64,000 nt of DNA from Alphaproteobacteria bacterium. Lineage in GTDB: Bacteria; Pseudomonadota; Alphaproteobacteria; DSM-16000; Inquilinaceae. The stretch spans positions 1 through 64,000 of the forward strand of contig JAAAOG010000127.1 in assembly GCA_009909005.1 (NCBI GenBank). Reading direction: 5' to 3'. The translations under genes were made by a program, and so were the position numbers. The notes beneath the pieces were generated by a model. That model saw only the letters and a list, made by a program, of their open reading frames with translations. It was not told the DNA's origin and ran no database searches. Shown here piece after piece: positions 17,868 to 47,784 of this stretch (the stretch's first letter is position 1; each line of letters begins with the position of its first letter).

Positions 17868-18437
17868 ATGACCCCCTCGGCCCTGTTCATGCCGCCGCAG
17901 ACCCTGGTCCTGGTCGGGCTGATGGGCGCCGGCAAGACCGCGGTCGGCCGCCGGCTGGCCGCGCGTCTCGGCCTGCCCTTCGTCGATGCCGACCACGAGA
18001 TCGAGGCGGCCGCCGGCTGCAGCATCGAGGACATCTTCGAGCGCTATGGCGAACCGGCCTTCCGCGATGTCGAGCGGCGGGTGATCGAAAGGCTGCTGCA
18101 GGAGCCGGTGCACGTGATGAGCGCCGGCGGCGGCGCCTTCATCGAGCCGGAAACGCGCGCCCTGATCCGCGCCCAGGCCCTGTCGCTCTGGCTGCGGGCG
18201 CCGGTCGAGCTGCTGCTGGCCCGCACCGCCCGGCGCTCCAACCGGCCGCTGCTGAAGCGCGGCGACCCGCGCGAGATCCTGACCCGCCTGAAGGCCGAAC
18301 GCGACCCGCTCTACGCCGAGGCCGACATGGCTATCGACAGCGAGGACGGCCCGATCGACGCCACGGTCGACCGGGCGCTCGAGGTCCTGACGGATTTCCT
18401 CGATCGCGGCGCCGGACCGTTTCGGGGCGGGCGCTGA
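17868..18437 (+). CDS. aroK: Shikimate kinase
   Basis: This 189-residue enzyme phosphorylates shikimate in aromatic amino-acid synthesis. The P-loop is GLMGAGKTAVGRRLA. Substrate-binding residues are in FVDADHEIE and the FRDVE region, followed by SAGGGAF and the lid segment RRSNRPLL. The start at 17868 gives the usual short N-terminal extension. The customary partner aroB does not follow; phhB is convergent instead. Confidence 0.95.
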   Translation: MTPSALFMPPQTLVLVGLMGAGKTAVGRRLAARLGLPFVDADHEIEAAAGCSIEDIFERYGEPAFRDVERRVIERLLQEPVHVMSAGGGAFIEPETRALIRAQALSLWLRAPVELLLARTARRSNRPLLKRGDPREILTRLKAERDPLYAEADMAIDSEDGPIDATVDRALEVLTDFLDRGAGPFRGGR

Positions 18438-18458
18438 CGGCCGGCGCCGGTTCGACGG

Positions 18459-18800
18459 TCAGAGCGGCTCGCCGGCCAGCTGGTTGATCTTGGCCGCCAT
18501 GATGAAGTCGTTCTCGTGCAGGCCCCGGATCTTCATGGTCATCAGCGAAACCGTCGCATAGCCCCAGCCGAAGGTGATGTCGGCATGGTGGCCCTCCGCC
18601 TCGCAGAGTTCGGCGACCGAGTTGACGAAGTCCCAGGCCTGTTTGAAGTTGCCGAAGGAATAGGTGCGTTCGATGCGCCGCGCCTCGTCCAGCAGGTCCC
18701 AGTCGCGGGCGTCCTCCAGGAAGCCCTCCGCCTCCTCGCGGGTCAGCGGCGGGATGCCGCCCTGGCACGGCGTGCAGGTCTTCTCGGTCAGGGCCGTCAT
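18459..18800 (-). CDS. phhB: Pterin-4a-carbinolamine dehydratase
   Basis: This 113-residue enzyme regenerates tetrahydrobiopterin-type cofactor by dehydrating the carbinolamine. The active-site signature is EGHHADITFGWGYATVSL, with the His pair and a downstream GLHENDFIMAAKI. A Cys-containing N-terminal part (CTPCQGGIPPL) is typical of bacterial forms. The start at 18800 has GAGG six bases upstream. No phenylalanine hydroxylase gene is in the window. A tandem repeat array lies just upstream of its 5' end. Confidence 0.93.
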   Translation of the reverse strand: MTALTEKTCTPCQGGIPPLTREEAEGFLEDARDWDLLDEARRIERTYSFGNFKQAWDFVNSVAELCEAEGHHADITFGWGYATVSLMTMKIRGLHENDFIMAAKINQLAGEPL

Positions 18801-18927
18801 GGCGATCCTCATGTCGTGCAATCGCAATCCGCCACCGATATGGCCACGAAGGCGGGCGTGTCCACAGGCGGCGGCGTTCGAGGATTGTCTTGTCGCCCCA
18901 GGAACACCCAACCCTGACGCCTTTCGC

Positions 18928-19395
18928 ACCCCCATGGAGCGTCGGCCTCCGGCCGACGGCCGGCGGCGGGACGCCGCCGCTCCCGGGGGTCGGGAGGCTG
19001 TGCTCCCATGCGTGTCCCGCCGGACCGCCTTTCGCAACCCCATGGAGCGTCGGCCTCCGGCCGACGGCCGGCGCCGGGACGCCGCCGCTCCCGGAGGTCG
19101 GGAGGCTGTGCGCCGATGCGTGTCCCGCCGGACCGCCTTTCGCACGCCCATGGAGCGTCGGCCTCCGGTCGACGGCCGGCGGCGGGACGCCGCCGCTCCG
19201 GGGGTCGGGAGGCTGTGCGCCGATGCGTGTCCCGCCGGACCGCCTTTCGCAACCCCATGGAGCGTCGGCCTCCGGCCGACGGCCGGCGGCGGGACGCCGC
19301 CGCTCCCGGGGGTCGGGAGGCTCTGCGCCGATGCGTGTCCCGCCGGACCGCCTTTCGCACCCCCATGGAGCGTCGGCCTCCGGCCGACGGCCGGC
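18928..19395. repeat. Tandem array of two-hairpin repeats, period about 108 bp
   Basis: Four full units and one partial begin at about 18934, 19042, 19150, 19257 and 19365 (the ATGGAGCG landmark). Each contains a 48-nt core. It begins GGAG, then stem CGTCGGCC with loop TCC, then stem GGCGGCG with loop GGA, and ends GCTCC. A less structured spacer of about 60 nt follows. Open frames across the array are artefacts. The same core occurs in inverted orientation in the array at 41267-42002. Confidence 0.95.
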
Positions 19396-19443
19396 CACGG
19401 TATGCCGGGGACGAGCCCTCAACATACGAAGGGCTTGTCCCCG

Positions 19444-20463
19444 TCAATCAGTTTTGGATCGTGGCCCGGATTCCTTTGCATAGGTCAAAAAGGCTGCCAG
19501 CAAGTCTTCCGCAGATGGAAGCTTTCTTCTAAGCCTTTGTTCAGAATAATAGTAAAATAATCCAAGAACAACGCTTGCAATAGTAAATATTGCTCCCAAT
19601 GCTCCAAAGAATTTTAGAACAATATCATAGACTTCGCCAGATGTCATATATTGTGCTCTGAAGTTTTCATTTTGCGCTGCAATCTGTTCGTCCAGCCTTG
19701 CCAGCTCTCGTCGGCTTTCGTCGTGATTGGAGAATAGCATATTCTGGAAGTTGACCATGATCTGCTCAATCAAATCACGATTCTGGTTAATCAATTGTTG
19801 AGCCTGATAGCCGAATTGCCCTTGGTAAAAAGCCGTTTCATGGTCAGAATAATAATCCGTCATCACTTCAAGAACGAGAGTTTCTATCTTGTCGTCGCTG
19901 GGTATACGATCGCTTATTGCATTCAAATGCTGCAGTATTTGCTGGGTTTCTGGGTCAAGCGACTGCAAGGGACCAAAATCAGCTTCCCCGTCGGCTCCAG
20001 TCCCCAGAATATTTTGGAGCACCTGCATTATATCTTCCATCCGCGAGACAGAATCGTCGAATGCTTCCTGCTCCGCGTCTGCATCGCTTATTCCCTGCCG
20101 AAGGCGTGCCAATAGATCGTTGACCTCATATTCCATTTCTTCCAGATCACCAGCGTATGCGCTTGCTCTTCTTTCGTAGATTGAGTCTATCTGTTCGCCT
20201 GCCGATGTGGCCAGTTGCCTTCCAATATAACCCTCCACCAGAAAATACATTAGCACCATAAACATCAGAAAGAAAAATAGAAAGAACAAGGAGGTTGAAA
20301 TAAATGTCTTTTTTATGATCTGTGACTCAAAATTTTGCTGATCTTTGTCCCATCCGATTCTTGATTTCTCAGCTGCAGAACCCAATCCGGCCTGATGTGG
20401 CTTGCTCATAATATCTTGAAAAACTCTTTCATAGGCTTGTTCAAGACTTGCTTTTTGATCCAT
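19444..20463 (-). CDS. Coiled-coil membrane protein of unknown function, atypically low GC
   Basis: The protein has 339 residues. A first membrane segment (SLFFLFFFLMFMVLMYFLVEG) lies near residue 60. A long acidic, Gln-rich helical region follows (about 85-280), with likely coiled coils around EEMEYEVNDLLARLRQ and RRELARLDEQIAAQNENF. A second membrane segment (GALGAIFTIASVVLGLFYYY) is near residue 295, before a short basic tail. The start at 20463 follows GGGGAAAAG. Base composition is clearly lower in GC than all neighbours, which suggests transfer. The long periplasmic or cytoplasmic helical domain between two membrane spans is the only functional hint. Confidence 0.7.
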   Translation of the reverse strand: MDQKASLEQAYERVFQDIMSKPHQAGLGSAAEKSRIGWDKDQQNFESQIIKKTFISTSLFFLFFFLMFMVLMYFLVEGYIGRQLATSAGEQIDSIYERRASAYAGDLEEMEYEVNDLLARLRQGISDADAEQEAFDDSVSRMEDIMQVLQNILGTGADGEADFGPLQSLDPETQQILQHLNAISDRIPSDDKIETLVLEVMTDYYSDHETAFYQGQFGYQAQQLINQNRDLIEQIMVNFQNMLFSNHDESRRELARLDEQIAAQNENFRAQYMTSGEVYDIVLKFFGALGAIFTIASVVLGLFYYYSEQRLRRKLPSAEDLLAAFLTYAKESGPRSKTD

Positions 20464-40773: not shown

Positions 40774-41259
40774 ATGACTCCGGTCCTGCTCGGCCTCGGC
40801 AGCAATCTCGGCGATCGCGCCGTCAACCTGCAGGCGGCGATCAACGGCCTCAAGCGGTTTCTCAATGTCACCGCCGTCTCGCCGATCTACGAATCGGACC
40901 CGATGTACGAGACGGAGCAGCCGTGCTTTCTCAATCTCGTGGCCGCCGCCGAGACCGCCATGACGCCGGCGGCGCTGCTCGATGCGCTGAAGCGGCTGGA
41001 GACGCGGCTGGGCCGGCTGCCGACCCGGGTCAACGGGCCGCGGGTAATCGACATCGACATTCTATTCTACGGCGACCGGGTGGTGCGGACCGAGGCGCTC
41101 AGCATCCCGCATCCCGGCATGGCCGAGCGCGCCTTCGTCCTCGCCCCCGCCTCCGACATCGCGCCGGACTGGCCCTGCCCGGCGACCGGCCGGCGGGTCC
41201 GCGAGATGCTGGCGGCGCTGCGGCTGGACGGGGCGGTGCGGCGCTACGCCCCGGCCTGA
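40774..41259 (+). CDS. folK: 2-amino-4-hydroxy-6-hydroxymethyldihydropteridine pyrophosphokinase
   Basis: This 161-residue enzyme pyrophosphorylates the pterin in folate synthesis. Motifs are LLGLGSNLGDRAVNLQAAI, YESDPMYETEQPCFLNLV and the Mg-binding GPRVIDIDILFYGDRVV, followed by IPHPGMAERAFVLAP. The start at 40774 has GGGAG eight bases upstream; an ATG 27 bases earlier is less likely. It is divergent from folD, and folP/folB are not adjacent. The repeat array begins eight bases after its stop. Confidence 0.95.
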   Translation: MTPVLLGLGSNLGDRAVNLQAAINGLKRFLNVTAVSPIYESDPMYETEQPCFLNLVAAAETAMTPAALLDALKRLETRLGRLPTRVNGPRVIDIDILFYGDRVVRTEALSIPHPGMAERAFVLAPASDIAPDWPCPATGRRVREMLAALRLDGAVRRYAPA

Positions 41260-41266
41260 CCACCCC

Positions 41267-42002
41267 GGAGCGGCGGCATCCTGCCGCCGCATGGTCGGCG
41301 GGACGCCGACCCTCCACACTCTCCCCAAAGGAGCGGCGGCATCCTGCCGCCGCATGGTCAGCGGGACGCCGACCCTCCACACTCTCCCCATGGGCGCGTC
41401 GGCATCCTGCCGCCGCATGGTCGGCGGGACGCCGACCCTCCACACTCTCCCCAAGGGAGCGGCGGCATCCTGCCGCCGCATGGTCGGCGGGACGCCGACC
41501 CTCCACGCTCCCCCCGGGAGCGGCGGCATCCTGCCGCCGTAGGGTCGGCGGGACGCCGACCCTCCACGCTCTCCCCAAGGGAGTGGCGGCATCCTGCCGC
41601 CGTAGGGTCGGCGGGACGCCGACCCTCCACGCTCTCCCCAAGGGAGCGGCGGCATCCTGCCGCCGAACGGTCGGCGGGACGCCGACCCTCCACACTCTCC
41701 CCAAGGGAGCGGCGGCATCCTGCCGCCGTAGGGTCGGCGGGACGCCGACCCTCCACGCTCTCCCCAAGGGAGTGGCGGCATCCTGCCGCCGCATGGTCGG
41801 CGGGACGCCGACCCTCCACGCTCTCCCCAAAGGAGCGGCGGCATCCTGCCGCCGCATGGTCGGCGGGACGCCGACCCTCCACAATCCCCCGGGAGCGGCG
41901 GCATCCTGCCGCCGAACGGTCGGCGGGACGCCGACCCTCCACGCTCTCCCCAAGGGAGCGGCGGCATCCTGCCGCCGCATGGTCGGCGGGACGCCGACCC
42001 TC
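41267..42002. repeat. Tandem array of twelve two-hairpin repeats, period 60-63 bp
   Basis: Twelve units start at about 41267, 41330, 41392, 41455, 41517, 41580, 41643, 41706, 41769, 41832, 41892 and 41955. Each has GGCGGCA-TCC-TGCCGCC followed by GGTCGGCG-GGA-CGCCGACC, with a short CTCCCCAAG-type spacer. It fills almost exactly the gap between the folK stop (41259) and the ilvC stop (42007). Long frames across it in all phases are artefacts. On the reverse strand its core aligns with the 18928-19395 array. Confidence 0.97.
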
Positions 42003-42006
42003 CGCC

Positions 42007-43041
<1,035 letters not shown>

Positions 43042-44790: not shown

Positions 44791-47784
44791 CTACCGGCAG
44801 GCTTCCGGGACGGCGGCGACTTCGGTGATCTCGCAGCGGAAATCCGGCTGGGTGGCCGGCTGGAAGAAGCACTCCGTCGCCGCCCAGTCGTTCATGCAGG
44901 TGCAGCTCGGCGCGCGCGGCAGAACCCGGCCGCCTTCCGACAGGCAGCGGGAGACGGCGGCATCCAACTGGCTTTGACAATCCCGGCGGGCGATGGTTCG
45001 CGGCCCGATGGACGACACATTGCCGATGGAAATGGCATAGGTCCGGGTCGTCGTGCCGCCGGCATCCTCGCAGGCGACCTGGTCTGTGCGCTCCGCCGGG
45101 TCCTCGTCTTCCTGCCGTTCGGCCGGCGCGAAAGGCGGGGCGTTCGCCTGCAGGGCGCGGGCCTGGTCGGGGGTGAGATAGCCCGTCGGCTCGGCCCCGA
45201 TGGCGCGCTGATAGGATCGAATGGCGTCGCGGGAACGCGGCCCGAGAACGCCGTCGGCGCCGCCGGGATTATGGCCGACCGCCGTCAGCCCGCGCTGCAC
45301 CTGCACCCGCTGGAAGCGCGACAGGCCGAGCCCTGCCTCGGCCTCGGCCGCGATCTGCTGCGGATCCGGGTCCTGCGCATCCGCGTCCTCCCCGGCATCG
45401 CCGGCGCCTCCGGCATCGGGCGGCGGGTCGTCCCGCGTCGCCGACACGTCGCCGCCATCCGCTCCCCGGCCGGCCACCCCCGGCGTCTCCGCCTGGCCGC
45501 CATCGTCGGTGTCCGGCACGTCCCGCGGCAGGGCGGCGAGCCGGCGCCGGGCTTCGGTCGCGTGCACACCGTCCGGAAACTCGGCAAGATAGCCTTCCAG
45601 CGCGGCGATCGAGGGATTGCCGAGAACCGCCCGCCAGGCCGTCTCGTCGGCCGAGGTCCGTTCCAGCGTCTCGATCCGCCGGTGCGCCGCCGCCGCATGG
45701 ATGCTGTCGGGGTAGTCGGCGAGGAAGCTCTCGAGCGCCCCGACGTCGCCGGCGTCCCGCGCGGCCTCCCAGGCGGCGTCCTCGGCCGCGGCCTGCGACA
45801 GGGTGTCGAGGCGGATGCGGGCCTCCCGCGCATGCAGGCCGGCGGGGAAGGCGTCGAGGTAATCGCGGATGGCGTCTTCGCTGCCGTCGTTCACGGCCCG
45901 GCGCCACGCCTCCGCATCGGCTTCCGCCTGCCGCAGCGCCTGAATTTGGCGGCGGGCCGTTTCGGCGTGCACGCTTTCGGGGTAGTCGGCGATAAAGGCT
46001 TCAAGCGCCGCGATGGTGTTGGCCTCGCGGGTGGCGTCCCAGGCGGTCCGTTCGACCGCCTGCTGCTCCAGGGCTTCCAGCTGGCGGCGCGCCTCCGCGG
46101 CGTGCAGGCCGTCGGGAAAGTCGGCGATAAAGGCTTCAAGCGCCGCGATGGTGTCGGCCTCGCGCGCGGCGTCCCAGGCGGTCCGTTCGACCGCCTGCCG
46201 CTGCAGGGCTTCCAGCTGGCGGCGCGCCTCCGCGGCGTGCAGGCCGTCGGGAAAGTCGGCGAGATAGGTCCGCAAGGCCTCCAGCGATCCCACCTGCCCG
46301 GCCCGGGCCCAGGCCGCATCATCGGCCGCCACCCGTTCCAGCGCCTGCAGGCGCCGCACGGCGGCCGTGGTGTTGGTGCCCTCGGGATAGTCCTCGATGA
46401 ACGCCTCGAAGGCCGCGATGCTGTTGGCCTCCAGAGCGGCCTCCCAGGCCTCCTGTTCGGCGGCGCGGCGCTCCAGCACGGCCAGCCGGCGGCGCGCTTC
46501 CGGCGCATAGAGACCGTCCGGATGGTCATCGAGGAAGGCCCGGAACCCGTCGATCGACGCGTCGGCGATCGCCGCCTCCCAGGCGTCCTGTTCGGCCGCC
46601 GCTTCGCCGGCCGGATCGGCTGCCGGCGGTTCTGCGCCGCCCTGGCTGGGCGCCGGCGGCTGGGGCGTGTCGCCCGGCGGTGCGGGGTCGGCGGCCGATC
46701 CGCCGCCATCCCTTGGAGTGTCGGCCTCGGCCACCACAGGCGGGCCGGCCTCTTCGCCCATCATGGCCTGCCCGGCGAAGAAGGCGCCGCCGGCGACAAC
46801 CGCCAGGCCGACCAGCCCGGCCGCCAGTTTCTGCCAGACCGGCCGCCGCTGCTCCGTCTCGGCCGGGCGGGCGCCGGAACCGGGCGGCAGGCTCCGCCGG
46901 CTGCCCGAACCGGACACGGGGTCGGCAAACAGGGCCGGGTTGTCGAGCGCCGCCGCGAACTCCGCGGCCGAGGCGAACCGCTCGGTCGGCGATTTCGCCA
47001 TGGCCCTGGCGATCACCCCGTCGAGCCATTTCGGCACCATGGCATTCAGCAGCGACGGGTACACCGGGTCGAGATTGAGGATCTTCTGGACGACCGAGGC
47101 GTCCGAGCCGGTAAAGGGCCGCTCGCCGGACAGCATTTCATAGAGGACCACGCCGACCGAAAAGACGTCGGTGCGTTCCGTGATGGCGGAGTTGTGGCCC
47201 AGCACCTGTTCCGGCGACATGTACCAGAGGGTGCCCATGGTGACGCCGCTCTGGGTCAGCGACGTCCCCTTGGTCTTGACCAGGCCGAAATCGATGACTT
47301 TGGCGTCGCCTTCGCTGTCGATGAGGATATTGGACGGCTTGATGTCGCGATGAATGATGCCCTTTTTGTGCGCATGCTCGAGCGCCGCAAGGATCTGCCG
47401 GCAGATGGCCAGAGCACGGTCCGTGTCGAGCACCTTCAGCGCATCGAGTTCCTTGCGCAGCGGCCGGCCCTCGATATAGCGGGTGACGAGATAGGGTTCC
47501 CCGTCGTGCTCGCCCGTGTCGTAGACCTCGATAATATTGGGGTGGGACAGCTGGCCGACCGCCTGGATTTCCTTGAAAAAGCGGTCATGGCTTTCCGTCG
47601 AGCCGCTGCTGCCCTCGATCGCGGCATTGCGGATTTTCTTGATTGCGACGGTACGATTGATGATCGGGTCGGAAGCGCGGTAGACGATGCCCATCGCCCC
47701 CTGGCCGATGATGCCCTCGACGGTGTAGCGCCCGATCTTGTGTGGATGGCGAAACTGATCGGAACGTATCGTCGAATCGGTCAT
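44791..47784 (-). CDS. Receptor-type Ser/Thr protein kinase with eight helical repeats and a peptidoglycan-binding-like domain
   Basis: The protein has 997 residues. The kinase domain (about 20-285) has GQGAMGIV, the Lys of VAIKKI, HRDIKPSN, DFGLVK and the GTLWYMSPEQ P+1 loop, so it should be active. One membrane span (GLVGLAVVAGGAFFAG) lies near residue 340, then a Pro-rich linker. Eight tandem 45-residue repeats follow (about 395-760), with pattern AWxxAxxxxSIxALxxFLxDYPDGxHAxEARRRLxAL. A PF01471-like unit (VGHNPGGADGVLGPRSRDAIRSYQ) comes next, then a Cys-containing C-terminal domain with five or more Cys. The extracytoplasmic half probably senses the cell wall. Start 47784 follows GGAG. 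Confidence 0.88.
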   Translation of the reverse strand: MTDSTIRSDQFRHPHKIGRYTVEGIIGQGAMGIVYRASDPIINRTVAIKKIRNAAIEGSSGSTESHDRFFKEIQAVGQLSHPNIIEVYDTGEHDGEPYLVTRYIEGRPLRKELDALKVLDTDRALAICRQILAALEHAHKKGIIHRDIKPSNILIDSEGDAKVIDFGLVKTKGTSLTQSGVTMGTLWYMSPEQVLGHNSAITERTDVFSVGVVLYEMLSGERPFTGSDASVVQKILNLDPVYPSLLNAMVPKWLDGVIARAMAKSPTERFASAAEFAAALDNPALFADPVSGSGSRRSLPPGSGARPAETEQRRPVWQKLAAGLVGLAVVAGGAFFAGQAMMGEEAGPPVVAEADTPRDGGGSAADPAPPGDTPQPPAPSQGGAEPPAADPAGEAAAEQDAWEAAIADASIDGFRAFLDDHPDGLYAPEARRRLAVLERRAAEQEAWEAALEANSIAAFEAFIEDYPEGTNTTAAVRRLQALERVAADDAAWARAGQVGSLEALRTYLADFPDGLHAAEARRQLEALQRQAVERTAWDAAREADTIAALEAFIADFPDGLHAAEARRQLEALEQQAVERTAWDATREANTIAALEAFIADYPESVHAETARRQIQALRQAEADAEAWRRAVNDGSEDAIRDYLDAFPAGLHAREARIRLDTLSQAAAEDAAWEAARDAGDVGALESFLADYPDSIHAAAAHRRIETLERTSADETAWRAVLGNPSIAALEGYLAEFPDGVHATEARRRLAALPRDVPDTDDGGQAETPGVAGRGADGGDVSATRDDPPPDAGGAGDAGEDADAQDPDPQQIAAEAEAGLGLSRFQRVQVQRGLTAVGHNPGGADGVLGPRSRDAIRSYQRAIGAEPTGYLTPDQARALQANAPPFAPAERQEDEDPAERTDQVACEDAGGTTTRTYAISIGNVSSIGPRTIARRDCQSQLDAAVSRCLSEGGRVLPRAPSCTCMNDWAATECFFQPATQPDFRCEITEVAAVPEACR

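Follow-up and report, generated by a model that had tools for sequence, protein, structure and literature searches.

The window analyzed here, by which we mean the whole stretch of 64,000 nucleotides from an Alphaproteobacteria bacterium (assembly GCA_009909005.1, contig JAAAOG010000127.1), carries two tandem arrays that share a core of 48-49 nt, as the first-pass annotation had proposed. We counted 4.5 copies in array 1 (18936-19389; four complete cores and a half core, period 107-108) and 12 in array 2 (41267-42003, period 60-63). The core consists of two 23-nt REP hairpins placed back to back and inverted, with both GGAG tags pointing outward, and each REP comprises the tag, a perfect 8-bp stem and a TCC loop. 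The features are as follows.

18936-18983, + strand: REPIN copy 1 of array 1, with REP-A at 18936-18958, linker GC and inverted REP-B at 18961-18983
18936-18958: REP-A of copy 1 in array 1, GGAG CGTCGGCC TCC GGCCGACG
18984-19043, no strand: array 1 spacer, 59-60 nt, recurring after copies 2, 3 and 4
19044-19091, + strand: REPIN copy 2 of array 1, B stem with one unpaired change
19152-19199, + strand: REPIN copy 3 of array 1, A stem with one unpaired change
19259-19306, + strand: REPIN copy 4 of array 1
19367-19389, + strand: half element closing array 1, REP-A only
41267-42003, - strand: array 2, 12 REPINs, with REP-A on the - strand and REP-B on the + strand
41267-41289, + strand: example REP-B of array 2, GGAG CGGCGGCA TCC TGCCGCCG
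41293-41315, - strand: example REP-A of array 2, GGAG GGTCGGCG TCC CGCCGACC

The two arrays had previously been matched by reverse-complementing one of them, and this likeness holds, with the refinement that flipping a symmetric inverted pair such as this one merely sets which REP is named first. Array 2 has 3-nt linkers and spacers of 11-14 nt, and a similarity comparison found no likeness between the spacers of the two arrays, as had been claimed; the array 1 spacer is private to that array, and BLAST matched it to neither spacers nor flanks at other loci. Across the window we found 29 perfect sites of the core family, in which GGAG precedes a hairpin with a TCC loop and a stem of 7-8 bp; outside the family, GGAG hairpins with at least 7 bp of stem number only 2. 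Folding of single-stranded DNA predicts both hairpins of the core on either strand (z-scores -3.0 to -6.4). The paired stem differences described earlier stand between the two array consensuses and break down inside the arrays, where individual copies carry unpaired changes (for example at 19152-19199, 41330-41378, 41393-41441, 41580 and 41769). Two convergent genes enclose array 2, which takes up the whole interval between them except for 8 nt after one stop and 4 nt before the other, and by eye these genes read as probable folK and ilvC. Several reading frames on each strand run open through both arrays (window 18331-19560 and 41062-42122), giving GRRPTLHG- and VGVPPT-like peptides, so gene callers can overextend real genes or call false ones there. 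A further tandem repeat of 135 bp lies at 45963-46314 (2.2-2.6 copies) and is probably coding.

A covariance model built from the 16 cores and run against the 4.23-Mb genome revealed that the family extends well beyond the two arrays, with 157 matches (best E = 5e-15; near-symmetric elements count once for each strand). Exact half-element patterns occurred genome-wide 115 times for REP-A and 119 times for REP-B versus 1 and 0 for reversed controls, and these counts, together with the E value, argue that the core family is not a product of chance. Collecting copies locus by locus from the window and 40 further stretches yielded 96 tight pairs at 34 loci, all with outward tags; about 30 of these loci are independent, and at least 3 of the 34 are array ends split between contigs. 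REP-A was paired with REP-B in 94 of the 96 and B with B in none, while the two A+A pairs look like altered B copies, the one at window position 41393 being a B with a half change. The linker between the REPs measured 1-4 nt in these pairs and varied even between loci with identical stems. Family hairpins were 23-24 nt long with an 8-bp stem and a loop of 3-4 nt, and the tag was GGAG in 255 of 272 in a scan that allowed one mismatch to GGAG.

The suggestion that the core is the mobile or conserved unit is borne out by its edges, as this dispersed unit is bounded sharply and homology stops exactly at GGAG/CTCC. With one element per locus aligned, per-base information was 2.0 bits across the left tag and near 2.0 across the right, dropping at once to 0.07-0.7 bits outside the tags, and the GGAG tags and TCC loops were conserved about as well as the stems. 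Once REPs were masked, flanks and spacers were unshared between independent loci, except for the split arrays and one 34-nt match. A few spacers of 12-14 nt look alike by eye. At four loci (L059, L060, L062 and L063) single REPs lie head to tail beside one complete doublet, for example as successive B copies spaced by 8 nt, so single REPs can multiply too. An ORF model based on codon usage, with five window genes as its training set, places 24 of the 25 clusters between ORFs (16 in co-directional gaps, 7 in convergent gaps and 1 in a divergent, promoter gap). Rfam searches returned over cut-off only a tRNA in the window and nothing in four other loci, with weak hits far below it.

Three Y1_Tnp matches are present in the genome, and the RAYT on contig C190 alone has family hairpins adjoining: GGAG hairpins of types A and B lie on either side of the gene. 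This RAYT scored 89.8 bits against NCBIfam NF047646 (cut-off 80), also matched Y1_Tnp, and has E. coli TnpAREP (4er8, E = 8e-8) as its nearest solved structure. Its HUH (NHVH), WQ and YxxxNP (YIEENP) motifs are intact, and in our reading of the alignment the E. coli guide-contact residues W94, Q95 and R104 correspond to W, Q and R, while E100 and H101 correspond to D and R (residue roles from PMC6006769). An IS200-type gene on contig C22 was considered as the cognate enzyme and rejected, as it has Y1_Tnp but no family hairpins adjoining. The C190 RAYT frame has no ATG or GTG start ahead of the conserved N-terminus; only TTG is available as a start in that stretch, three times, and each of the three lies directly against the GGAG of a different member of a tandem run of three REP-A copies (L002:1995-2085). 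Translation may begin at a REP, or the gene may have lost its start, and the RAYT might be poorly translated or decayed. Beside the gene, two REP-B copies (L002:1336-1400) are each followed by 7-8 Ts and, unlike the window copies, resemble intrinsic terminators.

Judged by its sequence structure, the system is a REPIN/BIME that fails the literal GT[AG]G definition. Two inverted REPs stand at a short fixed distance, copies number tens to hundreds and are dispersed and mainly extragenic, and the genome has a cognate RAYT that is flanked by the same REPs and shows the HUH, WQ and Y---NP motifs and the NF047646 match that identify a RAYT/TnpAREP. The first-pass annotation had recognized a folded repeat family, a pattern that is real, and had named neither the REP/BIME/REPIN class nor its RAYT. 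Of the canonical GTAG REP super-family, the palindrome of 20-40 nt with a tag at one end is present and the 5' GT[AG]G foot is absent; other accepted RAYT subclasses (2.6 and class 3) also fall outside the literal GT[AG]G (PMC6006769). Membership in the CGTC-tagged REP super-family of alphaproteobacteria was not found, the edge of homology being GGAG and CGTC occurring only inside some A stems.

Comparison with published systems revealed both likenesses and departures. REPINs of Pseudomonas fluorescens SBW25 are likewise folded, inverted REP doublets that are dispersed, extragenic and RAYT-linked, and compensatory hairpin changes and tandem arrays have been reported for them (PMC3116915); their neighbor spacing, however, has maxima at 71 and 110 bp and the spacer between the REPs pairs in part, whereas here the linker is unpaired and minimal and the two REPs are of two subtypes. 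Stenotrophomonas maltophilia REPs (REPSm) share the 23-nt length, with a tag, a perfect 8-bp stem and a 3-nt loop (GTAG + 8 bp + 3-nt loop being the TnpAREP substrate, PMC8266576); BIMEs of this species have unrelated inter-REP segments, and modified REPs that preserve the palindrome were read as "selection for complementary mutations" (PMC2817692, PMC8266576). They differ in the tag, GT(A/G)G, and the GCT loop, and their RAYT belongs to group 3 with a DH[LF]H motif, as opposed to NHVH and YIEENP here. The nearest listed motifs (NH[IFV]H, WQ, YIxNNP) are those of TnpAREP subclass 2.4 / RAYT group 4 with "double foot" REPs (PMC6006769), which resembles our system in its spread over various phyla and its tags at both unit ends and differs in the Y motif and in the tag, GT[AG]G there; the assignment is one by motif only. 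In E. coli BIMEs, Y and Z REPs likewise show at least two subtypes alternating in inverted pairs with one RAYT (TnpAREP, 4er8), but E. coli REPs are longer, require a stem bulge and carry GTAG. The GGAG tag, the A/B heterodimer and the minimal linker are thus variant features of the known REP/BIME/REPIN class.

We then evaluated whether stem changes are paired, a point that had been raised from the two arrays and that a statistical test upheld: over 28 distinct rows, 99.3% of stem cells were paired versus 92.6% after shuffling, and the covariation score was 0.161 versus 0.038, with 0 of 500 shuffles as high and the signal destroyed by sliding the pairing partner. Pair 8 of A, which closes the loop, was Watson-Crick in 32 of 34 loci and used all four pair types (shuffled mean 10.4), and pair 1, at the foot, was Watson-Crick in 33 of 34 (15.7 shuffled), while the middle pairs are invariant and hence uninformative on covariation. 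Between the two REPs of a doublet, the loop-closing bases of A and B differed in 33 of 34 elements, against about 29 in shuffled data (P = 0.005, uncorrected for the tree), and pair 3 differed in every element; the doublet is never a perfect long palindrome. Paired stem changes in REPs have been published before (PMC2817692, PMC3116915).

Prompted by an earlier proposal to compare solitary with tandem copies, we contrasted changes within arrays with those between loci, choosing the exact form of the contrast during the analysis. Relative to their own array majority, copies showed 28 one-sided and 4 two-sided changes, whereas comparison of array majorities gave 66 two-sided versus 6 one-sided cells (cells that include shared descent), in line with the claim that stem differences between loci are mainly paired. 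Because cells share descent, we prefer distinct events, collapsed by hand, which gave one- to two-sided ratios of 22:2 within arrays and 6:7 (minimum) between loci (Fisher P = 0.004). One-sided changes, then, appear freely and are retained in arrays, but the founders of other loci had intact stems. The prevalence of one-sided changes in arrays and of two-sided changes between loci argues that broken-stem elements seldom reached new loci and that the fold was filtered during dispersal, which is what one would predict for a transposase that reads the hairpin. With S. maltophilia TnpAREP, cleavage is impaired or almost lost when a mismatch is placed mid-stem, and the effects are milder when blocks of stem bases are swapped to their complements (PMC8266576). 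Such cleavage behavior is an enzyme property that would yield the one-sided and two-sided pattern seen here.

The same contrast bears on two other explanations, since both correction of the stems and continuous host selection would also affect copies inside arrays. The stems might be kept by the host for an RNA-level role, as a 3'-end stabilizer or bidirectional terminator, rather than for mobility, and the intergenic placement mostly downstream of genes, the position of array 2 exactly between convergent genes and the strong hairpins on both strands would suit such a role. We nevertheless consider it improbable, as broken stems persist inside arrays, array 2 has 0 terminator-like T runs, up to 12 copies per gap exceed what a terminator needs, tags and loops are conserved at about the level of the stems when an RNA stem alone would not require it, and a cognate RAYT is present. 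Near-perfect palindromes are known substrates of in-place correction, and template switching in the hairpin at replication could produce paired changes with neither selection nor transposition; the L051 array holds a series of G-C, G-T, A-T and A-C at one pair, and two loci have clean two-sided changes inside an array. Correction should, however, act equally within and between arrays, which the excess of one-sided changes within arrays contradicts, and it leaves both the sharp-edged dispersal and the RAYT unexplained, making it less probable still. We infer that the data fit replication through the folded form, one of the two options first suggested, better than they fit such correction.

Least credible of all, to the point of being nearly dismissible, is a satellite-like tandem repeat that spread only by slippage and recombination and whose hairpins are incidental. 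Many copies do sit in arrays, with periods of 107-108, 60-63, 74 nt and others, but the roughly 30 loci have unrelated flanks and private spacers, include solitary elements, and have only a 46-51-nt core in common.

Where a transposase might cut was assessed from 42 clean outer flanks, those without a nearby REP. CC was enriched at -4 to -1 ahead of the tag, with 17 of 42 at -3/-2 where 4 were expected (P = 1.6e-7), and CT, which was sought first, was weak at the junction (5 of 42); flanks showed no extension of the palindrome, their pairing being no better than in shuffles (P = 0.41). The relative G042 has CT at this junction position in every case (30 of 30), within TACTG. The cleavage site of TnpAREP is CT or a dinucleotide that the tag dictates (PMC8266576), and the published guide rule, complement of N4 and then complement of N3 or N2, gives CT or CC when applied to GGAG; the match of the junction CC/CT to this rule is suggestive only.

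Taken with the dispersal and the flanked RAYT, we hold with high confidence that the core is a REPIN. This non-autonomous mobile element very probably depends for its movement on the C190 RAYT, an HUH/Y1 transposase acting in trans, transposition being what the sequences point to. The element would become single-stranded, for example on the lagging strand, and fold into the two predicted 8-bp hairpins, whereupon the RAYT would recognize the tag, perfect stem and TCC loop and cut immediately 5' to the tag, at a C-pyrimidine dinucleotide, a step suggested by related enzymes and the C-rich junction. The cut strand would be joined at a new site, leaving copies mainly between genes and away from promoters, and stem changes at new loci would be paired because only well-folded elements are passed on. 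Some landed copies would multiply in tandem with flanking DNA, presumably by slippage or recombination, into the arrays with private spacers that we observe; arrays would be by-products of spread, and any host function secondary. Against the reading of a copied unit, the variation of the linker over 1-4 nt is not an obvious product of a single such unit.

The element was not found in any of 40 relatives, 16 of them from the same family, and the best RAYT matches among these relatives reached 31-37% local identity. Closer homologues, 43-49% identical in alignment, came from Chloroflexi, Planctomycetota, Acidobacteria-like and other MAGs, a distribution that suggests horizontal acquisition. Most of these other-phyla genes are flanked by tagged hairpins of their own, often with TCC-like loops; one such genome carries 37 complete cognate hairpins, many of them in pairs separated by 100-119 nt, which is ordinary REPIN length, and another has only 3 copies of the hairpin pattern tried. 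A Fimbriimonas-like MAG (G044, the genome of L095) has 21 RAYT-family matches, unusually many. Pairing of the GGA of the tag with the TCC loop as a coupled unit was considered and rejected: by eye, relatives also combine TCC and TCCA loops with the tags GTAC and GTAG, so the two parts do not vary in step. More speculatively, and with the odds against it, one RAYT clade across many phyla may have diversified its tag (GGAG, GGAC, GGAA, GGAT, GTAC, GTAG) while mostly keeping a TCC-like loop, the cut or target dinucleotide shifting accordingly; here CC and some CT accompany GGAG, as the guide rule gives. If true, the tag diversity of this clade would be a natural record of guide reprogramming.

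Our observations widen the RAYT-REPIN class, adding a GGAG tag and a doublet tighter than in any of the published systems compared. As copies inside arrays are not newly transposed and each locus was founded by copying, setting array-internal changes against between-locus changes shows when the fold matters. This contrast distinguishes selection at the time of spread from two alternatives, palindrome repair and host selection, and it is applicable to any REPIN-bearing genome.
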